Shown: positions 3,377 through 16,014 of the stretch, piece after piece
Numbering within the stretch: position 1 is the first letter of the stretch
How the letters are laid out: each line of letters starts with the position of its first letter
Assembly: GCA_002862785.1 (NCBI GenBank)
Contig: PKDZ01000050.1
Location: forward strand, 1-61,241
Direction: 5' to 3'
Length of the DNA: 61,241 bases
DNA from: Flavobacteriales bacterium
GTDB lineage: Bacteria; Bacteroidota; Bacteroidia; Flavobacteriales_D; Sanyastnellaceae
The notes under the pieces: model-generated
What the model was told of the DNA's origin: nothing
The model's database searches: none
The model's input: only the letters and a program-made list of their open reading frames with translations
Made by a program: the position numbers and the translations under genes

Positions 3377-5131
3377 TCAGTGCGCCTCCTCCCCGTCGTC
3401 CAGCGGGACGGTCTGCGGGACGAAGTCCTCGTCAAAAGCGGGGTTGCTGTAGTCATACGCCCAACGGTGCACCTCAGGCAGGGCACCAGGCCAGTTGCCG
3501 TGGATGTGCTCAATCGGGGTCGTCCACTCCAAGGTATTGGCAGCCCAGGGGTTCTCAGTGGCGCGCTGGCCACGGAAAATGCTGTGGAAGAAGTTGAACA
3601 GGAACAGCAACTGGGACAGGGCGCCGACGATGGCGAACACCGAGATGACGGGGTTCAGGTCCGCCGTGGCATTCAGGAATTCGAAGGCACTGTACTCGTA
3701 GTAGCGGCGTGGAGCTCCCGCCATTCCGACGAAGTGCATCGGGAAGAACACGCCATAACCACAGACGAGGGTCAGCCAGAAATGGGCGAAGCCCAACTTC
3801 ATGTTCATCATGCGGCCAAACATCTTCGGGAACCAGTGGTACACCCCGGCCAACATGCCGAAAATGGCCGACATGCCCATCACGATGTGGAAGTGAGCGA
3901 CCACGAAATAGGTGTCGTGCACAGAGACGTCCAAGGCGGAGTCTGCGAGGATGATGCCCGTCAGACCGCCCGTGACAAAGGTGCTCACCAGACCGATGGA
4001 GAAAAGCATGGCCGGCGTGAAGCGCAGGTTGCCCTTCCACAGGGTGGTGATGTAGTTGAATGCCTTCACCGCGGACGGGATGGCGATCAGCAGCGTCGTG
4101 AACACGAAGACCGAGCCGATGAACGGGTTCATGCCCGTCACGAACATGTGGTGTCCCCACACGATGAAGCTGAGGAAGCCGATCGCGAGGATGGAGCCAA
4201 TCATGGCGCGGTAGCCAAAGATGGGCTTCCGGGCGTTCGTGGCGATGACCTCGGAACTGATGCCGAGGGCCGGCAACAACACGATGTACACCTCCGGGTG
4301 GCCGAGGAACCAGAACAAGTGCTGGTACAGAATTGGCGACCCACCGGTCACGTCGAGGGCCTCACCTCCGATGAAGATGTCGCTCAGGTAGAAGGCCGTG
4401 CCCATCGAGCGGTCCATGAGGAGCAACACCACAGCGGACACCAGAACCGGGAAGCTCAACACGCCGAGGATGGCGGTGATGAGGAAGGCCCAAATGGTCA
4501 GCGGCAGACGGAGCATCTTCATGCCTTTTGTCCGCAGGTTGATCACAGTCACGATGTAGTTCAGTCCGCCGAGCAGGGAGCTCGCCACGAACAGCACCAT
4601 GGAGATGAGCCAGAGGGTCATCCCCGTTCCGCTGCCCGGCATAGCCTGCGGCAATGCGCTGAGCGGCGGGTACACCGTCCAACCACCGGACGCGGCTCCG
4701 CCCTCAACAAAGAGGGAGAACACCATGATCAGGCTGGAGACCAAGAAGAACCAGTAGCTCAGCATGTTCAGGAAACCCGACGCCATGTCACGTGCCCCGA
4801 TTTGGAGCGGGATGAGCAGGTTTGAGAACGTTCCGCTCAATCCCCCGGTCAGCACGAAGAACACCATGATGGTGCCGTGAATCGTAACCAAAGCGAGGTA
4901 AGCATTCCGGTCGAGGATGCCGCCCGGTGCCCACTTGCCCAAGAAGGTCTCGAGGATGCCGAAGGGCTGCCCCGGCCATCCGAGCTGGAGGCGGAAAAAG
5001 ACGGAAAGAGCCACGGCGAGGATTCCCATGAAGACAGCCGTAATCAGGAACTGCTTCGAGATCATCTTGTGATCCTGGCTGAAGACGTACTTGGAGATGA
5101 AGCTCTCCTTGTGGTGTGCGTGTGCGCCCAT
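3377..5131 (-). CDS. coxA: Cytochrome c oxidase subunit I
   Basis: Catalytic subunit of the haem-copper oxidase, holding haem a, the a3-type haem and CuB in the inner membrane. It has 584 residues and about 12 membrane helices. Visible ligand motifs: IHGTIMVFFVL (first haem His), WFLGHPEVYIVLLP (CuB His with the cross-linked Tyr), GHHMFVTGM (CuB His pair) and HDTYFVVAHFHIVM (haem histidines). The HPEVY helix marks an A-family oxidase. It sits 22 nt after coxB and is the last gene of the act-cox operon. Subunits III and IV are not adjacent. Confidence 0.97.
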   Translation of the reverse strand: MGAHAHHKESFISKYVFSQDHKMISKQFLITAVFMGILAVALSVFFRLQLGWPGQPFGILETFLGKWAPGGILDRNAYLALVTIHGTIMVFFVLTGGLSGTFSNLLIPLQIGARDMASGFLNMLSYWFFLVSSLIMVFSLFVEGGAASGGWTVYPPLSALPQAMPGSGTGMTLWLISMVLFVASSLLGGLNYIVTVINLRTKGMKMLRLPLTIWAFLITAILGVLSFPVLVSAVVLLLMDRSMGTAFYLSDIFIGGEALDVTGGSPILYQHLFWFLGHPEVYIVLLPALGISSEVIATNARKPIFGYRAMIGSILAIGFLSFIVWGHHMFVTGMNPFIGSVFVFTTLLIAIPSAVKAFNYITTLWKGNLRFTPAMLFSIGLVSTFVTGGLTGIILADSALDVSVHDTYFVVAHFHIVMGMSAIFGMLAGVYHWFPKMFGRMMNMKLGFAHFWLTLVCGYGVFFPMHFVGMAGAPRRYYEYSAFEFLNATADLNPVISVFAIVGALSQLLFLFNFFHSIFRGQRATENPWAANTLEWTTPIEHIHGNWPGALPEVHRWAYDYSNPAFDEDFVPQTVPLDDGEEAH

Positions 5132-5153
5132 GGTGTCAGATTCGTTCAGGGGT

Positions 5154-6698
5154 TCAGTGGATCATGGCCATTTCGCCACCCTCGGTCGCTTTAACATTGG
5201 CCGTCGGGGTCGGTTCGCTGTCCGGCGTGGACGGTGCATCCTCGTCCACGAGGAAGACATCCTGCTGCTCGAGCCAAGCATCGTATTCCTCCTGCGACTC
5301 CACGACGACGTCCATCTTCATGTTGAAGTGGGCCGCCCCGCAGACTTTGTTGCAGAGGAGGACATAATTGAAATCGGGATCGTCGAGGATGACCCGCATG
5401 CTGTCCGTGGTGATGGTCGGGGTCATCTTGAACCGGGTCGGCACTCCCGGCACCGTGTTCATCTGGGCCCGGAAATGCGGCATGAACGCGGAGTGAATCA
5501 CGTCCCGGCTGCGGAACACGAACTCGACCTCTTGGCCCACCGGCAGGTGGAACTCGCCCTTGACGACCTGGTCGTCGCGGCCGGTGTCGAAGCTGCTCAT
5601 GCCGTTCTCGAAGGTGAAGCTCTCGATTTCCATGATGCGCTGACGGTGGCGCTTGAGGCGCTTGAGCTTGTCCTCCTTGGCCTCGATCTGAGCATCCGTC
5701 ATGATCAGGAGGCGGTCCGCCTGATGGTCAAGCAGGTCGTCGATCTCAGCAATGCGGGCTTCCGCCACCTCCTTCCAACCGTGGCCGTGGTCAGCATGGT
5801 CATCGTGGCCATGGTCATCGTGATCGTGATCGGCATGACCGTCGTGACCGTCGTGACCGTGGTCAGCGTGGTCATCGTGGCCATGGTCATCGTGATCGTG
5901 ATCGGCATGATCATCGTGGCCGTGGTCCGCGTGGTCGTCATGGCCGCCGTGGCCATGATCGTCGGAGACGAGGCTGGCGGTCAGCGTGGCGCGTTCCGCA
6001 ATGAGCAGCCCCTTTTCCATGGCGAGGTCGTGCTCGAGGTCCCCAATCTGCTTGTCGATTTCCACGATGGCGTCCTCTACACCCTCCGGCGTCAAGATGC
6101 CGAGCGGATTCATCGGCGTGATCAGGTTGTAGTTGGACTGGCCGAACTCACCATCGTTTCCAGCGTAGCGGGCCGTCCAATCGAACTGCTTGGAGTAGAC
6201 CTCGATGCGCAGGGCATCGGCGGAGACATCACCGGTCATCGCGTTCCAGGTCTGCAGACCGTAGATGATGATCACCGCGAGGACAATGGACGGGATGACC
6301 GTCCAAATGAGCTCGAGGCGGTTGTCATGAGCAAAGAAGGTCGCCTTGCGGTTCTTATCGTAAGCGTATTTCCACGCGAAGTAGAAGAGCAGGCTGTTCA
6401 CCAGCACAAAGACCACCGTGATGATCCAGATGTTGAAGCTCATCAGCCAGTCTAGGTCCACACCGTGCGCCGAAGCCGGCGGCGGAGCGTAGTCCCCATA
6501 GGCCCAGTAGAGGTAGGCCGTGGAAGCGAAGAACACGATGACGAACGCCAAGAAGAGATTGGCGTTCAGCCGGGTGTCTGCATGAGAGATGTCCTCCTCA
6601 CGTTGACCCGAGATCCGGGACGAGAGTTCATAGACTTTCGCCAACTGCCCGACGGCCACAATGCCGACGATGACGACGAGAAGAATGAGCAATTGCAT
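5154..6698 (-). CDS. coxB: Cytochrome c oxidase subunit II with His/Asp-rich insertion
   Basis: Carries the CuA site that accepts electrons from cytochrome c on the periplasmic side. The protein has 514 residues. Hydrophobic helices lie near residues 1-19, 44-66, 88-107 and 129-148, followed by the CuA cupredoxin domain. CuA ligands are visible as His401 (VIHSAFMPHF) and CNKVCGAAHFNM (Cys449, Cys453, His457, Met460). The residue between the cysteines that is often Glu is Lys here; I recall the same in other Bacteroidota, and that position binds copper through its backbone. The CuA domain is interrupted by residues 204-360: two charged heptad-like helices around a His/Asp/Gly-rich tip (246-307). 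There is no fused cytochrome c domain. It lies 17 nt after actF. Confidence 0.95.
   Translation of the reverse strand: MQLLILLVVIVGIVAVGQLAKVYELSSRISGQREEDISHADTRLNANLFLAFVIVFFASTAYLYWAYGDYAPPPASAHGVDLDWLMSFNIWIITVVFVLVNSLLFYFAWKYAYDKNRKATFFAHDNRLELIWTVIPSIVLAVIIIYGLQTWNAMTGDVSADALRIEVYSKQFDWTARYAGNDGEFGQSNYNLITPMNPLGILTPEGVEDAIVEIDKQIGDLEHDLAMEKGLLIAERATLTASLVSDDHGHGGHDDHADHGHDDHADHDHDDHGHDDHADHGHDGHDGHADHDHDDHGHDDHADHGHGWKEVAEARIAEIDDLLDHQADRLLIMTDAQIEAKEDKLKRLKRHRQRIMEIESFTFENGMSSFDTGRDDQVVKGEFHLPVGQEVEFVFRSRDVIHSAFMPHFRAQMNTVPGVPTRFKMTPTITTDSMRVILDDPDFNYVLLCNKVCGAAHFNMKMDVVVESQEEYDAWLEQQDVFLVDEDAPSTPDSEPTPTANVKATEGGEMAMIH
5778..5963 (-). repeat. Imperfect tandem repeat encoding the His/Asp-rich tip of CoxB
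   Basis: This stretch encodes about 62 residues made almost only of His, Asp, Gly and Ala (motifs such as GHDDHADH and DHDHDDHGHDDHADHG). At DNA level a block starting at 5787 recurs at 5859, a 72-bp period with nearly identical first 48 nt. The reading frame stays open throughout and the repeat lies inside coxB. Confidence 0.85.
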
Positions 6699-6715
6699 AT
6701 CGACTCAGTTTGAGG

Positions 6716-7972
6716 TCAGTAGTGGAGGGCTTTTGACTCCTCGAGATACGGGTGGTTCACGGCGATCAGCGGGGCCGAAGCGAGCCGGCTCAACGTCACG
6801 TGGATGAACAACCCGAGGAACCCGAGGAACGTTCCCCATTCAAAGAACCCAAAATGCGCGTGGTCGTGCAGAGTTCCGGGTACGACGAGCAAATACACGT
6901 CCGTGTAGTGTCCGCAGAAAATGAGGAGGCAGACCGGAATGACGAAATAAGGGTTTCGTTTCGCGTCCCGGGCAACGAGCACGTAGAAGGGAATGGCGAA
7001 GTTCACGAAGAACATGCCGATGAAGGGCACCTTGTAGTTGGTGAACATCCGGGCGATGTAGTACGTCACCTCCTCCGGAATGTTGGAGTACCAGATGAGC
7101 AGGAACTGCGAGAACCACAAGTAGCTCCAGAGCATGCTGATGGCGAAGACCCACTTGCCCATGTCGTGCATGTGGCTCTCGTTGACTTCCTGGAAGTACC
7201 CGACCGAACGGAGCCAGGTCAAGGTCACCGTGGAGAAGATGAGCATGCTCACCCACATTCCACTGAAAATGTACCAGCCGAAGAGGGTCGAGAACCAGTG
7301 CGTGTCGATGGACATGATCCAGTCCCAAGCGAGCGTGGAGCTGAAAACCGCGAAGAACACCAGGAACAGGGCCCCGCGGCGGTACATCTTGTAGTGCAGG
7401 TCTGTACCGCCCACTTCATCCTCGGCCAAGCTCCACTTGCGGAACATCCGAGCAAACAGGAGGAACGTGCCGATGTAGACCAACGTGCGCACCCAGAAGA
7501 AGCTGCCGTTCAGGTAGGCACTCTTGTTGGCGATGATATGGTCGAAGTTGGGGTTGGCCACGGCACCCTCCACCATCTCGTGGGAATAGGACCCATCCGG
7601 CAGCATGTACTCGTAGTACAACGTGTGGTCCATCCAGTGATAGAGGTGGTGCAGGTGGAACTGACCGGCCAGCAGGACGATCAGGATGACCCCGGCACCG
7701 TAGGGCAGGAACCCGTAAATGGCCTCGAACAGGCGCTTCAGCACTGCACTCCAGCCACTCTCCGTGGCGTACTGCAGGGCGTAGAAGAAAAGCGCGCCCA
7801 GGGCAAGCGAGAAATAGAAGAAGCCGTTGACGAGCAGGTTGGCCCAGAAACGCTGGTGACCGTGGCTGTCATCGAAGAGGAATCCGGACGCCAAGGCCAC
7901 CACGCCGATGCCCATCAGGACATAGGTCAGGGTCTTGGCGCGGCCTTCGAAACGGAAGTTCATCGTGTCCAT
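6716..7972 (-). CDS. actF: Alternative complex III subunit ActF (NrfD-like quinol:cytochrome c oxidoreductase membrane protein)
   Basis: One of the two polytopic membrane subunits of alternative complex III, which oxidises quinol in place of the bc1 complex. The 418-residue protein has about ten hydrophobic helices, with N-terminal RAKTLTYVLMGIGVVALASG and later WDWIMSIDTHWFSTLFGWYIF. The last is a typical ActF/NrfD helix region. It lies 5 nt after actE and 17 nt before coxB. The start may be Met1 or Met4. Confidence 0.93.
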   Translation of the reverse strand: MDTMNFRFEGRAKTLTYVLMGIGVVALASGFLFDDSHGHQRFWANLLVNGFFYFSLALGALFFYALQYATESGWSAVLKRLFEAIYGFLPYGAGVILIVLLAGQFHLHHLYHWMDHTLYYEYMLPDGSYSHEMVEGAVANPNFDHIIANKSAYLNGSFFWVRTLVYIGTFLLFARMFRKWSLAEDEVGGTDLHYKMYRRGALFLVFFAVFSSTLAWDWIMSIDTHWFSTLFGWYIFSGMWVSMLIFSTVTLTWLRSVGYFQEVNESHMHDMGKWVFAISMLWSYLWFSQFLLIWYSNIPEEVTYYIARMFTNYKVPFIGMFFVNFAIPFYVLVARDAKRNPYFVIPVCLLIFCGHYTDVYLLVVPGTLHDHAHFGFFEWGTFLGFLGLFIHVTLSRLASAPLIAVNHPYLEESKALHY

Positions 7973-7977
7973 GGCTC

Positions 7978-8724
7978 TCAGTGTGCGGTGTTGACGGCCA
8001 TGCCCTCCATGCCGACGGAGACGGCGGGAGCAGCGGGCGTGCGGGGTTCATCCTCGGCTTCCCCTTCGGCGTCAGCCGGAACGAGCATGCCATCCTCGTC
8101 GAAAGTGGGCATTTCGCCCCCCTGCTGGAGCACCTTGATGTACTCAATCACCTCCCAACGCTGGCGCTGGCTGAGCTGGCTGGCGTGGGAGCCCATCAGG
8201 CCCTTGCCCCAGGTCAGGGTGTGGTACATCTTGCCCTCGGGCAGGTCCTTCAGCTTGTCGCTGTAGCTCGGGATGCCGGCGATGTGGCCATTGACGCTCA
8301 GGGCGCCATTTCCCTTGCCCTCCGCACCGTGGCACTGCGTGCACATGGCGACGTAAATCTTCTCCCCGGCCTCGATGTTGGCCTGGTTGGTCAAGAGCGG
8401 GCTCATCAGCTCGGCACCGGCACGCTCGTAGTCCTCGGGGGTCTGAGCGTACGGGTACGGAAGGGCAAAGGCCAGCTGGTCCTCACCACGGAAGGGAATC
8501 GTCCCGGCGGCCGGCTTGCGGCTGGACGGAGTGCTGCGCTGGGCGCGGGCGACGTCCTCGCCCACCACGTAGGCCTCCTGGCCGTAGTCCACGTAGGCCT
8601 CCACGGCCGGGCTCCGGTACATGTCGGGCATGTACTCGACGCCCGGGCTGTTCGGATCGGTCACGCACGCGGTCATCAGGATCGCGGCGAACGTGGGCAA
8701 CAGAATGTGCTGTGCGGTCTTCAT
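7978..8724 (-). CDS. actE: Alternative complex III subunit ActE, monohaem cytochrome c lipoprotein
   Basis: Monohaem cytochrome c of alternative complex III. It has 248 residues with an N-terminal lipoprotein signal (MKTAQHILLPTFAAILMTAC) and one haem-binding CTQCH motif in a class I cytochrome fold (YVAMCTQCHGAEGKGNG). A Met ligand probably lies in the GKMYHTLTWGKGLMGSH region. The C-terminus is acidic and proline/alanine-rich. The start overlaps the actD stop by 4 nt, so the two are translationally coupled. Confidence 0.93.
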   Translation of the reverse strand: MKTAQHILLPTFAAILMTACVTDPNSPGVEYMPDMYRSPAVEAYVDYGQEAYVVGEDVARAQRSTPSSRKPAAGTIPFRGEDQLAFALPYPYAQTPEDYERAGAELMSPLLTNQANIEAGEKIYVAMCTQCHGAEGKGNGALSVNGHIAGIPSYSDKLKDLPEGKMYHTLTWGKGLMGSHASQLSQRQRWEVIEYIKVLQQGGEMPTFDEDGMLVPADAEGEAEDEPRTPAAPAVSVGMEGMAVNTAH

Positions 8725-9263
8725 GCTGCGTACTCTTTGATGCTGACCTCCATCACGTCCGTCTCCTTGACGGCAGATTCGAGGCCGGCGGCGTCCATGT
8801 CGTTCTCTTCGGTGAGGATCTCCATGACAAACTTGTCGTCCGTGGTGCGCGGGTCCGGATTGGAGGCCGGCATGCCGGGCAGGGTTCCGTTGCGAAGCAG
8901 GTAGGTGATCGCCATGCCATGGGCACCGCAGAGCACCGTGAATTCGAACGTGACCGGCACGAAGGCAGGCAGGTTCTCAATCAGGCTGAAGCTCGGCTTT
9001 CCCCCGATGTTCATCGGCCAGTCCTGGATCATGAAGTACCACATGCCGAAGAGGGCAAGGCTCGTTCCCGTCATGGCGTACATGAAAGAGGCGATGGCGA
9101 GGCGGGTCCGCTTGATGCCAATCACCGGGTCGATGCCGTGCACCGGGAACGGGCTGTAGACATCCTTGATGCGGATGCCCTTGGCGACGAGAGCCTTGGC
9201 AGCCGCCATCAGCTTGTCGTCGTCGTCGTACATGACGTGGAAGACCTTTTTGGTGGATTCCAT
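8721..9263 (-). CDS. actD: Alternative complex III subunit ActD (DUF3341)
   Basis: Small membrane subunit of alternative complex III, 180 residues. It has the DUF3341 pattern: an N-terminal soluble part (KGIRIKDVYSPFPVHGIDPVIG), then two hydrophobic helices (SFMYAMTGTSLALFGMWYFM and a second near ENLPAFVPVTFEFTVLCGA), then a short tail. In known structures it helps anchor the ActB/ActE side. It is 4 nt after actC and overlaps actE by 4 nt. Confidence 0.92.
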   Translation of the reverse strand: MESTKKVFHVMYDDDDKLMAAAKALVAKGIRIKDVYSPFPVHGIDPVIGIKRTRLAIASFMYAMTGTSLALFGMWYFMIQDWPMNIGGKPSFSLIENLPAFVPVTFEFTVLCGAHGMAITYLLRNGTLPGMPASNPDPRTTDDKFVMEILTEENDMDAAGLESAVKETDVMEVSIKEYAA

Positions 9264-9267
9264 GAGA

Positions 9268-10665
9268 TCAGGCGTTGGTGTTGGACTTGGCGTCAGCTTG
9301 GAGGCGCTTCTGCTCCTCGCCGCTGGACTTCAGGATGGTCTTCAGCTCGTTCAAGGCCAACACCGGGAAGAACCGGGCGAAGAGCAGGAAGAGCGTAAAG
9401 AAGATGCCAAGGGTGCCGATGAAGACGCCAACGTCAATGCTCGTGGCGTTGAATTCAGACCAAGAGGACGGCACGTAGTCACGGTGGAGCGAGGTGAGGA
9501 TGATCACATAGCGCTCGAACCACATGCCGATGTTCACCACGATGGACAGGATGAACGTGGCCACCAGGCTGCGGCGAATTTTCTTGATCCAGAAGAGCTG
9601 CGGGCTGATCACGTTGCACGTCATCATGGCCCAGTAGCTCATGCTGTATGGTCCACTGAAGCGGTTGATGAAGGCATAGCTCTCATATTCCACGCCGCTA
9701 TACCAGGAGATAAACAGTTCGGTCAGGTAGGCCACCCCCACGATGGAGCCGGTCACGATGATCACGATGTTCATGTACTCCACGTGCTTGGTGTGGATGT
9801 AGTTTTCGAGGTGCATCGCCTTCCGCATGATGAGCAGGAGCGTCTGCACCATCGCGAAGCCGGAGAAGACAGCACCGCTCACGAAGTAGGGCGGGAAGAT
9901 GGTCGTGTGCCAACCCGGGATGACGGAAGTGGCGAAATCCATCGAGACGATGGAGTGCACCGAGAACACCAGCGGGGTGGCGATTCCGGCGAGCACGAGG
10001 CTCACCTCCTCGAAGCGGGTCCAGTTCTTGGCACGGCCACTCCAGCCGAAGCTCAGGATGCTGTAAATCTTCTTCTGCAGCGGCTTGGTCATCCGGTCAC
10101 GGATGGTTGCGAAGTCCGGAATGAGGCCGATGTACCAGAAGACGAGGGACACCGAGAAGTAGGTCGAGATGGCGAACACGTCCCAGAGGAGCGGGCTGTT
10201 GAAGTTGACCCACAGCGATCCGAACTGGTTCGGCAGCGGCAGCACCCAGTAGCTCACCCAAATCCGGCCCATGTGGATGCCGGGGAAAACGGCCGCCATG
10301 ATGACCGCGAAAATGGTCATCGCCTCCGCAGAGCGGTTGATGGCCATCCGCCACTTCTGGCGGAACAGCAACAACACGGCGGAAATCAGCGTACCGGCGT
10401 GGCCGATGCCGACCCACCACACGAAGTTGGTGATGTCCCAAGCCCAGCCGACGGTCTTGTTCAGACCCCAGACGCCGATGCCCGTTCCAATCAGGTACAG
10501 GATGCACCCGACGCCGTAGAAGGCCACCATGCTGGAAATGGTGATCATGACCTTCCATCCGAGCGGCGCAGCGCCTTGGATGGGGCCCACCACATCGTCC
10601 GTGATGTCCTTGTAGCTCTTGTTCCCCAGGATGAGGGGTTCCCGAATGGCCGCTTCTTGCTGCAT
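9268..10665 (-). CDS. actC: Alternative complex III subunit ActC (NrfD/PsrC-like, quinol-binding)
   Basis: Polytopic membrane subunit expected to hold the quinol oxidation site next to the iron-sulphur arm of ActB. It has 465 residues and about ten membrane helices, with family signatures [18 protein letters not shown] and [20 protein letters not shown]. The C-terminal tail is charged. It lies 3 nt after actB and 4 nt before actD. Confidence 0.95.
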
Positions 10666-10668
10666 GGC

Positions 10669-13600
10669 TTAGGCGTTGGGGGTGTTGCGGACCTTCGTCA
10701 GGTAGGCGACGTTCGGCTGGACGCCGATCTCCTCCAGGGCGTGGTAGGTCCGGTTGTTGTCGTACGTGGCGCGCACCTCGCTGGAGGTGTCGTTCAGGTC
10801 ACCGAAGGTGATGGCGTTGGTCGGGCAGGCTTCAGCACAGGCCGTGATGGCACTTCCGTCCTCGAGTGGCGTTCCCGCCTTCTTGGCCTCAAGCTTGGCT
10901 CCCTGGGTCCGCTGGACGCAGAGGCTGCACTTCTCCATGACACCGCGGCTCCGGACGACCACGTCCGGGTTGAGCACCATCCGCTGGATGGCGTCCTGCG
11001 CCGGGTTGAGGTTCTGGAACTTGTCGTATCCGGGGTAATGGAACCAGTTGAAGCGGCGCACCTTGAAGGGGCAGTTGTTGGCGCAGTAGCGCGTGCCGAT
11101 GCACCGGTTGTAGGTCATCTGGTTGACGCCCTCGTTGGAGTGCGTCGTGGCCGCCACCGGGCACACCGTCTCGCACGGCGCGTGGTTGCAGTGCTGGCAC
11201 ATCATCGGCATGTGCACCGTCTGCGGGTTGGCTCCCGGCTCCTCCATCTTGGCATAGGTGGAGATGACGCCGAGGCCTTCCTCAGCACCGCGCTCCTTGC
11301 TCCAGTCGGACGCGTAGTAGCGGTCGATGCGCATCCAGTGCATGTCGCGGTGGCGGCGCACCTCGTCCTTTCCGACGACCGGTACGTTGTTCTCGATGTG
11401 GCAGGCCGTCACACAGGCGCTGCACCCGATGCAGCTCGTGAGGTCAATGGCCATGCCCCAACGGTGTCCGACACCGTCGACGGCATGCTCGTGCCAGAGG
11501 TCAAACTCACCGGCAGCCTTCTTGTCGAGGGCATTGATCTCTCCGTCGCCGTTGATGTCGTCGTGGACGTTGAGGCCGATCACCCGGTTCCAGCTGGCGT
11601 CGCCACGCTTCGCATCGGCTTCGGCCAGGTAGCCGTCGAGGGTGGTCTCCTTCACCACGGAGTCACGCCCCATGATGGTGTGGTGCAGCTGCGTGCAGGC
11701 CAGTGGGTGGGTCTCGCCGGTCGCTTGGACGGTCACGTCGTAAGCGGAGAAGGCTGGGAGGTCTTCCACCGAGCCGGCCAAGCCAAAGGCGTTCTTTCCA
11801 ATCGGGACGAGGTTCCCCTCGGCATCCGCGAGGTGGTCTCCTCCTTCGCCCACCTGGTAGGCGGCCTTGCCGATGGCCTCGTTGCCCGCGCCCCGGCCGT
11901 AGCCGAGGGCGATGCCGACCGTGCCGGGAAGCTGTCCGGGCTGCGGGAAGGCGGGAAGCTCGATGGAGGTTCCATTGACCGTCACCTTCACCACAGAGGC
12001 GGGATCCTTCTCGGCGATGTAGGTATTGAGTCCCATCGCCTCCATGTCCGCGCGGGCCATGGTCACGTAGTTGTCCCACGTGGTCTTGGTGATCGGGTCA
12101 GGTGTCTCCTGGAGCATCGGGTTGCCGGCCTGCTGGCCGTCTCCCATGGTCACCTTGCGGTAGAGGTCGAGCTCGAAGCCACCCCCTTTGCGGCCCTTGA
12201 CAGCAGCCAAGGCGCCAGCGAGGGCGGAACCGCTGTAGGCAGCGGCCACCTTTTCCGGAGTCGCCACGGCGAGGAAGCCGTTGTGGACACCGGTGTTCCA
12301 ATCCTGGTCGGTGTACATGGCCTCGGCGCTGTAAGCCGCATTGTGCGTCCGGCGCAGGAACGTGTACGCATCCACGGTCTGGCCAGCCCAGGCGAGCAGG
12401 CTTTCGGTGGCGTGGCGCGTGTCGTAAAGCGGCTGGATGGTTGGCTGGGCGATGTCGATGCGCTCAGGGTCAATCTGCAGGTCATTCCACGCCTCGAGCC
12501 AGTGGTGGTTCGGGGCAATGGCCGTGCAGCGGCTCGCGGTCTCGTCGGCGAACAGCGCAGTGGACACGCTGAAAGCGACCTTGTCGAGGCCAGCGTTGAA
12601 GGCGGCAGCGTCCACAGCGTGGTAGGACGGGTTGGTGCCGTCCACAATGAGGGCAGACACCCGGCCCGCCTTCATGTCCTCCACGAGGGTGGCGAAGGCG
12701 GCGTCATCGCCCTGATGCAGGGCGGCCTTCTCGTTGATGTTGACGGTCGTGCCGAGGGCGCCGAGCGCCACGTTGATGGCGTTGACGATGCACTGTGTGG
12801 CGACGTCGTTGTCTCCGGCGACCACCAGGCCGTTGGCTCCGGCGGCCTTCAGGTCGGCTGCAGCCGCCTTCACACCGGCGAGGATGGCCTCGTCGAGTCC
12901 AGCCACATGGCCCTGACCGTTGATCTCATTGAGCAGGGCGGCGGCCACGTTGCCCTGCTGGGAGGGCTTGACGCGGGTGCGGCGGTCGGCGTTGGATCCC
13001 GTGAGGGACATTCCGCTCTCGAAGGCGTGCAAGACGCTCATGGCCCCATCCTCCGGACGGCGGGTCTTGGCCCATTCGGTCGTGTACCAGACTGTGTCGC
13101 CCCACGTGCCGAGGAAGTCGGCGTTGAGGGAGACCACAGTCTTCGCGTTGGCGAAATCGTAAGACGGGAAGACCCGGCGTCCGAAGTCCTTCTCGGCCGC
13201 TTCGACAATGGCGCCGTAGCTGATGGAATCACACTGGACGTGCTCGACACCGGTGGCTTCCGCCAGAGCGGCGATGGCGCGGGAGTGGCTCGGGCTCATC
13301 ACCGTGCCGGTCAGCAGGACCTTGCGACCGGCTCCGGACAGGCCCTTCTGGACCGCTCCGTCGAGGGTGGTCCAGTCGGTGGCCTCACCGTTGAGCTGGG
13401 GAGCCTGAAGGCGGGCGGAGTCGTAGAGACCAAGGACGGACGCGTTGACGCGGGCGTTGACCCGGCCGTATCCCGTCTCGGTGTTGCTCTTGACGAAGAT
13501 CGGACGGCCTTCGCGCGTCTTCACCAGGACGTCCACGTAATCGTGGCCGTCATAATAAGTGGAGGCGTAGTAGTTCGCGACACCCGGGGTGATCTCCTCG

Positions 13601-13848
13601 GGCTTGTTGGTGTAAGGAATCGACTTGACCACCGGCGTCTCGCAGGCAGCGAGCGTGGCGGCAGTCACGGAGAAGCCCATGAACTTGAGGAAGTCCCGGC
13701 GCCCGGTGTTGGCGCGCTGAAGCCGATCGTCGGCGAGGAACTCGTCCACTGGCCGCTCGGCGGGGAACTCCTGGGATTCGAGCTGCTCGAATTCCGGGGT
13801 GCGGTCCAACTCCTCGAGTCCGGACCAGTAAATCTTGTTGTCAGCCAT
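10669..13848 (-). CDS. actB: Alternative complex III subunit ActB, molybdopterin-type domain fused to iron-sulphur domain
   Basis: Large peripheral subunit, 1059 residues. The N-terminus has a twin-arginine-like RRDFLKFMGF signal followed by a lipobox-like cysteine (TAATLAAC), so Tat export with lipidation is likely. Residues to about 750 form a molybdopterin-oxidoreductase-like fold; in this family it carries no molybdenum cofactor. The C-terminal third has four [Fe-S] cluster motifs: CIGCSACVTACHIENN, CQHCNHAPCETVCP, CIGTRYCANNCPF and CSLCVQR with CAEACPTNAI. They form the electron wire between quinol and the haem subunits. It starts 29 nt after actA. Confidence 0.96.
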   Translation of the reverse strand: MADNKIYWSGLEELDRTPEFEQLESQEFPAERPVDEFLADDRLQRANTGRRDFLKFMGFSVTAATLAACETPVVKSIPYTNKPEEITPGVANYYASTYYDGHDYVDVLVKTREGRPIFVKSNTETGYGRVNARVNASVLGLYDSARLQAPQLNGEATDWTTLDGAVQKGLSGAGRKVLLTGTVMSPSHSRAIAALAEATGVEHVQCDSISYGAIVEAAEKDFGRRVFPSYDFANAKTVVSLNADFLGTWGDTVWYTTEWAKTRRPEDGAMSVLHAFESGMSLTGSNADRRTRVKPSQQGNVAAALLNEINGQGHVAGLDEAILAGVKAAAADLKAAGANGLVVAGDNDVATQCIVNAINVALGALGTTVNINEKAALHQGDDAAFATLVEDMKAGRVSALIVDGTNPSYHAVDAAAFNAGLDKVAFSVSTALFADETASRCTAIAPNHHWLEAWNDLQIDPERIDIAQPTIQPLYDTRHATESLLAWAGQTVDAYTFLRRTHNAAYSAEAMYTDQDWNTGVHNGFLAVATPEKVAAAYSGSALAGALAAVKGRKGGGFELDLYRKVTMGDGQQAGNPMLQETPDPITKTTWDNYVTMARADMEAMGLNTYIAEKDPASVVKVTVNGTSIELPAFPQPGQLPGTVGIALGYGRGAGNEAIGKAAYQVGEGGDHLADAEGNLVPIGKNAFGLAGSVEDLPAFSAYDVTVQATGETHPLACTQLHHTIMGRDSVVKETTLDGYLAEADAKRGDASWNRVIGLNVHDDINGDGEINALDKKAAGEFDLWHEHAVDGVGHRWGMAIDLTSCIGCSACVTACHIENNVPVVGKDEVRRHRDMHWMRIDRYYASDWSKERGAEEGLGVISTYAKMEEPGANPQTVHMPMMCQHCNHAPCETVCPVAATTHSNEGVNQMTYNRCIGTRYCANNCPFKVRRFNWFHYPGYDKFQNLNPAQDAIQRMVLNPDVVVRSRGVMEKCSLCVQRTQGAKLEAKKAGTPLEDGSAITACAEACPTNAITFGDLNDTSSEVRATYDNNRTYHALEEIGVQPNVAYLTKVRNTPNA

Positions 13849-13877
13849 GGGGCAGATCTCGATTTGCGTTCAGATGA

Positions 13878-15296
13878 TCAGTAGTGGCACTTGGCGCATT
13901 CCCATCCGCCGAGTTCCTTGACCGTCGTCTTTTCGTCTTCCAAATACTTCCGGAGCTCCTCGTTGCCACGGAGGTCATCCTTGAGGCGCTCGTGGATGTC
14001 CTCGTAGTAGCCGGAGGAGGCGAAGCTGATCTCCGCCTTGTTGTGGCACTCGATGCACCACCCCATCGTCAGGGTGGGCTTGGACAATTCAATCAGGCCG
14101 GGGAAGTCGTCCACCAAGCCGTTGATCTCTTCCACCGGGGCAATGCGGCCCACGGTGAACTTGCCGACATCGCCATGGCAATTCTGGCACTCGAGGCCGC
14201 CGACCACAACGTGCTGCTGGTGGCTGAAGAAGACGTGGTCCGGCAGGTTGTGGACCTTGTTCCACTTCAGGGGCTTGCCCTGGAAATCGTCCTGCGGGCT
14301 CTGGTAGCCGTTCTGGCCCTCCCCGTCGAGGTAGGTGCCGGACTCGGCGTCGAAGCCGATGGCGGCGTAGATCTTGCCGATCTCAACCTCTCCGTAGCGG
14401 CTGCCCTTCTTCACCGCCTTGTGGCAGTTCATGCAGACGTTGGTGGACGGGATGCCGGCGTGTTTGCTCTCGTAGGCGCTGTGGTGGCAGTACTGGCAGT
14501 CGACCTCGTTCTCACAGACGTGGACGCTGTGGATGAACTTGACCGGCTGGTCGGGGGTGTAGCCTTGGTAAACGCCCACCCCCATCAGGCCCTGATAGCC
14601 AATGACCACGAGGTAGGCCACCACAAACAGGCCGAGAATGCTCACGAAGGCGATGTTGTCCCAGGCCCAAGCCCGGAGACGAACCACGTAGGGCGCGTCA
14701 TCGTCCTCAGCCACTTCCTGAGCGGCACGCTCCAGGCTGCGGCGAACGGTGGCGGCGCTCAACGCGATGATCAGGAACAGGGTCAGCAGGATGAGAAACC
14801 AAATCGTTCCGTTGGCACCCTGCTCCTCCTCGAGGGCATCGTAGATGGTCGGACAATCCGTTCCGGTGTCGGCTGTGGCCACCACATCCGGCGGATTCTG
14901 GACGTAAGCCATGATGTCCTTGACATCGTCGGCGCTCACCGCCTGCGCGGTCATCCAGCCATAGGTGCCGACGTAGCGGTCGACCAGGGATTTGACATAG
15001 GGGTCGCCGGTGGCGGCCGCAGCCTGGGGATTCTGGATCCACTGGACCAAGATTTCCTCGCTGGAACCCCAGCGGTCCGCGATGCCCGCGAGGCCCGGCG
15101 CTGCCAGGACCTCATTGGTCACCTTGTGACAGGATGCACAGTTGGCATTGAACAGGGCTTGCCCGTTCTCGATGTTGCCTTCATCCCAAATGCCCGCCGT
15201 CGCTGCGGAGGGCGCACTGAGCATGGCTACTGCCATGATGGAAGCCAGCCCCCTTGCCACAGGAAGGCGCCGCTTCGCGCTCAAGATTCCAAACAT
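13878..15296 (-). CDS. actA: Alternative complex III subunit ActA, multihaem cytochrome c (six CxxCH)
   Basis: First gene of the operon, 472 residues from the ATG at 15296. A signal peptide (VARGLASIMAVAMLSAPSAATA) is followed by a monohaem cytochrome domain (CASCH). Two hydrophobic helices follow, then a five-haem region (CQYCH, CMNCH, CQNCH, CIECH, and CAKCH at the extreme C-terminus). That gives six haem motifs, one more than the classical pentahaem ActA. The frame is open up to 15503, but that extension would read through the -7 box and lacks a signal-peptide start. actB follows after 29 nt. Confidence 0.94.
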   Translation of the reverse strand: MFGILSAKRRLPVARGLASIMAVAMLSAPSAATAGIWDEGNIENGQALFNANCASCHKVTNEVLAAPGLAGIADRWGSSEEILVQWIQNPQAAAATGDPYVKSLVDRYVGTYGWMTAQAVSADDVKDIMAYVQNPPDVVATADTGTDCPTIYDALEEEQGANGTIWFLILLTLFLIIALSAATVRRSLERAAQEVAEDDDAPYVVRLRAWAWDNIAFVSILGLFVVAYLVVIGYQGLMGVGVYQGYTPDQPVKFIHSVHVCENEVDCQYCHHSAYESKHAGIPSTNVCMNCHKAVKKGSRYGEVEIGKIYAAIGFDAESGTYLDGEGQNGYQSPQDDFQGKPLKWNKVHNLPDHVFFSHQQHVVVGGLECQNCHGDVGKFTVGRIAPVEEINGLVDDFPGLIELSKPTLTMGWCIECHNKAEISFASSGYYEDIHERLKDDLRGNEELRKYLEDEKTTVKELGGWECAKCHY

Positions 15297-15320
15297 GTTG
15301 TGCCGCTTGATTTTCGCGGG

Positions 15321-15328
15321 CAAATGTA
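15321..15328 (-). promoter_or_regulatory. -7 box for the act-cox operon
   Basis: On the minus strand this reads TACATTTG, an exact TAnnTTTG. It is 24 nt upstream of the actA ATG and downstream of the SPOR gene stop, so it is well placed to drive the eight-gene respiratory operon. A good -33 TTG at normal spacing was not found. Confidence 0.5.
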
Positions 15329-15369
15329 GAGTCCAAACCGCGACTGGGCCACGGATTGAGCGAGAAGTT

Positions 15370-16014
15370 TCAATCCCGGTGTGTAGGTGACAAATGGGGG
15401 CCATGGGCCGGAGAACTCCCCGCCGGGAACACCGCATCGAGGGGCAGGTCGAGGGGCACCACCAAGGCATTGGGGAAGCGGGGGCGCCACGCCTCCCGGA
15501 CACGGTGTGCAGCCAGCGAGGTGGTGAAGTTTCCGACCGTCACCCCAAAGAGCGGTGAATATGGCGTCACATGCATCGGTTGGTCCAACTCCTCCAGTTC
15601 CAAGCTGCGCTTGAGTTGCCTGGCACTGTCGAGTTTGCCCATGAACAGCTGGACCCGGAACCCGGGAATCCGGATGTCCTTCGCCTCAGGGCGGCCACTG
15701 TCCAACGCGAGGATTTCGGCCGGGATCTCCCAAGTCACACTCCCCCGAATGCCCTCAGGGACATCCTTCATGGAGTCCACGGTCATGTCGTTCACGTGAG
15801 GCTCTGGGCTCTCCGCCTCGGGGACCACCCCTTTGGCATCTCCGGGCCAAGGAGTGACGTCCGAGTCCTCCGCGGTCTCTTCCGCGGGGGCCTCCGCTTC
15901 AGGCGCAGAAGCGGCCGGCTTGAACAGCTGACGCCACCACCCCCCATTGTCCTGCGCACTGCAGAGAGCGGGCAGAACCAACAAAACGAGGAGAAGAGGC
16001 CAAGCGCTTCGCAT
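15370..16014 (-). CDS. Secreted SPOR-domain protein
   Basis: 214 residues from the ATG at 16014. An N-terminal signal peptide (PLLLVLLVLPALCSAQ) is followed by a low-complexity Ala/Glu/Pro stretch (about 30-75). A C-terminal SPOR-like fold (about 125-195) shows GFRVQLFMGKLDSARQLKRSL and later FGVTVGNFTTSLAAHRV. SPOR domains bind denuded peptidoglycan. The start codon overlaps the stop codon of the PorZ-like gene (TGATG), so the pair is translationally coupled and may act together in the envelope. The exact role is unknown. Confidence 0.75.
   Translation of the reverse strand: MRSAWPLLLVLLVLPALCSAQDNGGWWRQLFKPAASAPEAEAPAEETAEDSDVTPWPGDAKGVVPEAESPEPHVNDMTVDSMKDVPEGIRGSVTWEIPAEILALDSGRPEAKDIRIPGFRVQLFMGKLDSARQLKRSLELEELDQPMHVTPYSPLFGVTVGNFTTSLAAHRVREAWRPRFPNALVVPLDLPLDAVFPAGSSPAHGPHLSPTHRD

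Follow-up and report, generated by a model that had tools for sequence, protein, structure and literature searches.

A histidine- and aspartate-rich tip on a predicted helical stalk within the CuA domain of CoxB in a family of the Flavobacteriales

The CoxB protein encoded in the act-cox operon of a member of the Flavobacteriales carries a long insert rich in histidine and aspartate, and the question this raises is how such an insert arose in the domain that holds the CuA centre and what it might do there. The window in which it was found, that is the whole stretch of DNA that was analysed, is 61,241 nucleotides long, and the coordinates of the features are collected in Table 1. Within the operon Pfam and NCBIfam profiles matched CoxA, CoxB, ActC (as NrfD), ActD, a c-type cytochrome (ActE) and iron-sulphur and molybdopterin parts resembling ActB. 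ActA and ActF, the latter matching no profile, were named by their position and by the matching genes of related operons.

Table 1. Positions of the act-cox operon, coxB and the parts of its insert in the window.
Feature	Window positions	Strand	Basis and remarks
act-cox operon: ActA, ActB, ActC, ActD, ActE, ActF, CoxB, CoxA	3377..15503	minus	profile matches and position
coxB, cytochrome c oxidase subunit II, 514 aa, carries the insert	5154..6698	minus	ORF, Pfam, AlphaFold2 fold match
CuA ligands C449, C453, H457, M460	5319..5354	minus	alignment; fifth ligand H402 at 5493-5495
Base helix 1 of hairpin, aa 204-226	6021..6089	minus	AlphaFold2 pLDDT ~95; common to tipless relatives
Second-tier helix, aa 229-245	5964..6014	minus	AlphaFold2; tip-bearing CoxB only
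His/Asp/Gly/Ala tip, aa 246-307	5778..5963	minus	TRF, composition, AlphaFold2; 72-bp repeat period
Second-tier helix, aa 307-325	5724..5780	minus	AlphaFold2, sequences; tip-bearing CoxB only
Base helix 2 of hairpin, aa 335-356	5631..5696	minus	AlphaFold2; common to tipless relatives

The transmembrane domain of CoxB and its CuA ligands are normal. The N-terminal transmembrane hairpin domain, PF02790, is matched by residues 72-149 with 50.8 bits against a cut-off of 22.8; the periplasmic domain, PF00116, reaches 21.0 bits against a cut-off of 22, and the whole-protein model TIGR02866 scores 109.7 against 147.7, in a match split into two stretches as would be explained by the insert. When the AlphaFold2 fold was compared with a structure library the best among the matches listed was 7atn_B, with a Z score of 16.5 and an rmsd of 2.5 over 211 aligned residues. 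All 50 of the matches listed for CoxB are chains of Cox2 or of subunit II of quinol oxidases, and the comparison is therefore silent on whether the hairpin alone resembles a known fold. In an alignment of 52 CoxB sequences H402, C449, H457 and M460 are invariant and C453 is nearly so, completing the set H..C-x3-C-x3-H-x2-M; by analogy with Cox2 these residues are the ligands of CuA. The Phe of the QFDW motif, residue 172, is likewise invariant in the 52 sequences. It presumably occupies the site of the electron-entry Trp of bovine Cox2, a difference that may relate to complex III itself being the electron donor. Antisense to coxB, on the plus strand, a frame of 454 residues (window 5091-6455) with Met/Val/Ile repeats over the tip is also open, most likely as a mere consequence of the coding sequence opposite.

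The insert lies between the QFDW strand (residues 171-174) and the FHLPVG strand, with H402 beyond it, and its location within the CuA domain, proposed in a first-pass annotation of this DNA, is borne out. QFDW and the CuA His motif are at a distance of 224 residues in the window CoxB as compared with 58-66 in insert-free relatives, giving an insert of about 165 residues, through which the reading frame is open and intact. AlphaFold2, given 52 aligned CoxB with the window CoxB among them, produced a model with a mean pLDDT of 80.0, in which the four helices of the insert reach about 95 and residues 251-304 fall below 50; the tip is probably disordered, to judge from this model. The predicted boundaries nearly equal those that the first-pass annotation had drawn for a stalk and tip, with helical arms at about residues 204-244 and 308-360 and the tip at 246-307. 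Its two flanking arms stand, with the refinement that each is made of two segments, a base helix and a second-tier helix. In the model of a tipless CoxB from the same family only two helices, 204-231 and 236-257, are seen at the insert site. As the second helix pair is absent from this tipless model and from the tipless sequences, the insert can be described as two-tiered, a base hairpin followed by an added helix pair with the tip. The insert helices presumably pack on each other, and the stalk would point away from the CuA domain.

The 62 residues of the window tip comprise 23 His, 23 Asp, 11 Gly and 5 Ala, the four residue types named at first sight, and its net charge is -23 when His is counted as neutral. 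Tandem Repeats Finder (TRF) identified a 72-bp period over 5780-5964, with 2.6 copies, 84% matches and 0 indels, which confirms the period noted earlier and, together with the intact frame, supports growth by in-frame repeats. CoxB peaks at 8 His per 20 residues; the other window frames listed with at least 7 His per 20 are just three, on the minus strand and 64-143 residues long, and were taken for out-of-frame. The His richness of CoxB is more than chance. When the tips of the family are pooled, H, D, G, A, E, S or N make up 96.5% of 2168 residues and H alone 34.6%. The repeat unit varies by genome, being HGHDD in G018, HDDHADHG in G012 and long and poorer in acids in G114, with His kept throughout. 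His is encoded by 419 CAC and 346 CAT codons in 60 tips, that of G041 included.

The tip recurs widely in the family. Our sample holds 114 family genomes, 104 of them with a CoxB match and 91 with the insert fully read, the remaining 13 CoxB being fragments, broken at the tip or incompletely retrieved; all counts are on G-numbered genomes only. A His-rich tip is found in 59 of the 91, from 10 of 20 genera, and is absent from 32, from 10 genera, which have a shorter insert instead. The family tips are 10-110 residues long (median 30) and contain 4-30 His each. It had been allowed at the outset that close relatives might lack any hairpin, or that the repeat might be an artefact of assembly. All 12 scorable CoxB of the window's genus have both hairpin and tip, and an artefact is ruled out by the recurrence of the tip in many separate genomes at different lengths. 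Contigs stop at the tip in G096, G097 and G108, and G095 runs into N there; short-read assembly may therefore mis-size the repeat, making the exact length of a tip less sure than its existence, which is sure.

Elsewhere in the order, 18 of 23 genomes belonging to other families were scored (G046, G053 and G056, like the family genome G095, were unparsed, and G051 and G059 were also left out). In 17 of the 18 the insert is as long as the plain hairpin and no His-rich tip is present. G041, the single genome sampled from family f6, has a His-rich insert at the same site with unrelated helices and a CxxC motif (CDSC). Named farther relatives such as Altibacter (L108) and Algibacter (L101) are insert-free, the distance being 58 in the former and 60 in the latter. 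The homologue survey that the first-pass annotation had called for thus finds that the insert recurs, with the hairpin older and order-wide and only the tip and second helix pair limited to part of the family. G076 (L162), which is tipless, has a longer hairpin end, with a distance of 154 and no His-rich tip; this is an independent extension at the same site. Record titles, most of them silent on habitat, hint at a marine origin for genomes with the tip and a freshwater origin for those without.

The insert would have been built in three layers, an order-wide hairpin, then the helix pair with an HGH loop and then growth of this loop by repeats. A tree was computed from 107 of the 109 scored CoxB with the insert excluded, 58 family tips being represented in it. 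Unconstrained, it has 3 changes of tip state, at least 2 of them forced by well supported branches, although placing the 58 family tips in one clade gives a p-AU of 0.431, so that a single gain in the family is not rejected. The G041 tip stands apart from the family tips, in a placement that depends on long branches. From these sequences it is likely that the tip was gained at least twice, G041 counted. The G021 tip, HPSHGHGDGH, is among the shortest, and such tips suggest that the HGH loop would have come first, with repeat growth following in several genera.

As to function, we tentatively favour, at rather less than even confidence, a reading in which the tip is a flexible, multivalent loop that binds Cu or Zn with low affinity beside CuA. 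Metal binding is put first because the short tips keep His and not acids, because of a likeness to ZrgA and ZnuA that is considered below, and because of the CDSC motif in G041. The ratio of His to acids is 4/1 in G021, 9/3 in G121 and 13/6 in G122, and G090 has one acid; retention of His over acids favours the chemistry of His over plain charge. The stalk would hold the metal-binding tip away from the CuA domain and the tip would gather metal ions close to the oxidase, where it might aid Sco-dependent filling of CuA under copper scarcity or take up inhibitory zinc. It would assist Sco and not take its place. Of the 114 genomes of the family, 109 have a match to SCO1/SenC, in 108 of them above the cut-off; the matches cover all 21 genera, tip or no tip, which rules out the tip as a stand-in for a missing Sco. 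A double-Sco protein of about 430 residues, the first domain of which is without the Cys pair, is encoded at L206 (the window's own genome, contig C12), L207, L209 and L211, and a single Sco of about 230 residues in several other genera. Genera with the tip seem to have more Sco matches, but in some of them the double-Sco protein may be counted twice. No copper or zinc handling gene was recognised beside coxB, its neighbours being act-cox genes. A role in copper loading is not the sole reading, as His-rich stretches are also present in ActB, ActC, ActF and AtpB, none of which is known to be a copper protein, and the approximately one acid per His in the long tips suits a proton buffer equally well.

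The main rival, close behind metal binding though in itself unlikely, is that the His and carboxylate groups of the tip buffer protons and pass them on along the outer face of the proton-pumping supercomplex, which would be useful if the outside were slightly alkaline. PMC4332470, in the available part, describes antennae on the outer surface of membranes in which carboxylates and histidines collect protons. The near 1:1 ratio of H to D+E in the long tips and the recurrence of His-rich stretches in proton-translocating complexes (CoxB of f1 and f6, ActB, ActC and ActF) are consistent with such a role. The short tips with almost no acids argue against it, as does the stalk, which depending on its direction may keep the tip far from the membrane, and the tail of ActC may lie on either side of the membrane. 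AtpB, subunit a of the ATP synthase, has a His/Asp-rich N-terminal stretch in the window's own genome (L252, contig C20). At least 7 His per 20 residues are found in AtpB in 8 of 22 tip-labelled genomes as against none of 26 others, that is none of 10 tipless family genomes and none of 16 more, these 16 including G041 and the genus members G007 and G011 in which CoxB was not found. The tip-labelled set was 24, with 2 cut off, and the labels of G013, G014 and G028 come from incomplete CoxB. As the counts are not independent of phylogeny and many other relatives have AtpB with 4-6 His per 20, the covariation with the CoxB tip is suggestive only.

The stretches in the other subunits are scattered over several families. 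His/acid-rich ActB occurs in f2 (G037, G048; L257, L264), reading HDAYEHDHDHGDGHDHDHDHHDHKVHVKH, His/acid-rich ActC in f3 (G038; L258) and f11 (G046; L274), and His/acid-rich ActF in f3 (L258) and f13 (L272). Among 47 chosen operon loci, a non-random set from which CoxA was left out, at least 7 His per 20 residues are reached by 12 of 47 CoxB, 2 of 45 ActB, 2 of 45 ActC and 2 of 46 ActF, and by none of 42 ActA, 45 ActD or 45 ActE. The N-terminal end of CoxA is His-rich in several related loci. The stretches in ActB, ActC and ActF came to light through a search of 20 genomes for a His/Asp codon pattern, with the backward pattern as a control. In seven genomes from outside the family there were 14 matches at 11 places, two of these within the operon of about 12 kb for which the rough expectation is 0.04, and 4 matches to the control; given these control matches, and an idea drawn from the same data, the enrichment in the operon is a lead and not a test. 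In the window's own genome the pattern is found in CoxB and at nine other places, and the control at 0. Three of the nine lie in likely genes, for AtpB, a lipoprotein and a small membrane peptide, and the remaining six were taken for out-of-frame or had no frame.

The putative periplasmic lipoprotein (L251:1961-2623, minus strand; L221:1357-1809, minus strand, in G039) appears to be laid out as helix, His-rich loop and helix, which would be the layout of the CoxB tip in a free protein. Its neighbours in G000 resemble what we take to be hemB, dihydrofolate reductase and thymidylate synthase. The small frame, L229:698-940 on the plus strand, ends MGHDHDHHDHSEAEQNEIGGPVVFALFLFAIVIMAMYFLS and has a His/Asp-rich head and a hydrophobic stretch, with no Pfam match. 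It is possible, but we think doubtful, that in this one order of Bacteroidota flexible His/acid-rich appendages have been gained separately several times on the ACIII-oxidase supercomplex and in part on the ATP synthase, differing by subunit and family (CoxB hairpin tips twice, ActB, ActC, ActF and AtpB). On the outer face they would hold protons or metal ions in reserve for the respiratory chain, with the CoxB hairpin tip as the most elaborate form.

Low-complexity growth at a permissive loop under weak constraint or none, with His and Asp kept only because an old seed is copied on re-expansion and the product is tolerated in the periplasm, is a further explanation, which we regard as improbable. 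It is consistent with the insertion site having already been reported for Cox2 in the accessible part of PMC5374615 and with big shifts in length, from 62 to 41 residues between species whose matched CoxB are 96% identical. Stalk and tip also change more quickly than the core, the codons that differ in amino acid over 14 sister pairs being 89 of 436 in the tip, 123 of 1260 in the stalk and 145 of 4894 in the core. Against it, composition is kept over 10 genera despite differing repeat units, there is a separate His-rich insert in G041, and synonymous exceed non-synonymous differences in the tip, at 135 to 89 in the 14 pairs, again partly through alignment bias, and at 14 to 11 in the 60 tip codons of three gap-free pairs. 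A neutral simulation gave the opposite, about 1 to 3-5. The 161 His columns of the sister pairs include 52 synonymous and 18 changed; with codons shuffled as a control the numbers were 47 and 94, many His-His matches thus arising from alignment alone. As the aligner makes part of the His signal and just 3 pairs are gap-free, selection on His from sister pairs was set aside as strong proof and composition across genera relied on instead. Repeat copies within arrays differ at 304, 345 and 525 sites by codon position, with 194 synonymous and 540 non-synonymous codon pairs, a comparison that shows no constraint because the copies were compared out of register. Overall we regard the evidence that the tip is constrained as moderate and not strong.

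Cox2 docks cytochrome c via acids near the insert site, and the insert sits between the electron-entry strand and the part holding the CuA ligands, but a docking arm, in which the acidic tip draws a basic cytochrome c, or some other subunit of the supercomplex, to the face at which electrons enter CuA, is very unlikely given that short tips are nearly uncharged (one acid each in G021 and G090), that tipless relatives exist in the same family and order, and that a comparison of operon subunits by length and His content found no tip-linked partner, leaving the docking to ActE or ActA proposed in the first-pass annotation without support.

If the tip binds copper, the enzyme that depends on this metal would carry a store of its own. 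If instead it handles protons, local proton transfer along the outer face of the membrane, which has long been argued, could be put to a direct test, because nature offers a series of close relatives that have the tip or lack it and in which tip length differs greatly. Either way a known site of insertion in Cox2 can gain a new appendage while CuA is kept.

Parts of this arrangement have precedents. In the open-licence literature no paper was found that joins alternative complex III with histidine-rich, nor, in titles and abstract openings, one pointing to a His-rich CoxB; in the searchable part of PMC8552683, on Flavobacterium johnsoniae, the sole match for CoxB, CuA or insertion content is a reference title. 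According to the available part of PMC5374615, which cites Oudot-Le Secq 2001 and Waller 2003, Cox2 of ciliates, brown algae, microflagellates and 'bacteria' has insertions between the region of the heme-patch Trp and CuA. As here, these are in frame in the same part of the protein, and the enlarged Cox2 keeps CuA. The initial view that the feature is undescribed accordingly fails for the enlargement at this site and can hold for the His/Asp tip only: compared by description and unaligned, that part of the source mentions no His/Asp tip, whereas in the insert described here the stalk is predicted to be helical, the tip is probably disordered and the length is driven by repeats. The plain CoxB hairpin of the order shares the gene, the insertion point, the base helices and, where compared, the operon, but is without the His-rich tip and the second helix pair.

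Histidine-rich loops are known from zinc uptake. The ZrgA model NF047873 matches residues 238-305 of CoxB with an E-value of 4.7e-4 and 19.9 bits, far under its cut-off of 185; the likeness is of composition alone, the fold outside the tip is that of Cox2, and membership of the ZrgA family was rejected. The His-rich loop of ZnuA, in the portion of PMC4542158 that was available, is disordered, 12-50 residues long and binds zinc with low affinity, in a role that is poorly defined and not essential to high-affinity binding. The CoxB tip, which is probably disordered as well, resembles it in being rich in His, in varying in length and in belonging to an otherwise folded protein of the periplasm; ZnuA, however, is the binding protein of a transporter, whereas CoxB is a subunit of an oxidase with its own copper centre, in which metal binding by the tip is putative. 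Both the insertion site in Cox2 and His-rich metal loops are therefore known already, and it is, as far as the open-licence literature goes, the His/Asp tip on a predicted helical stalk in the CuA domain that is the new part.
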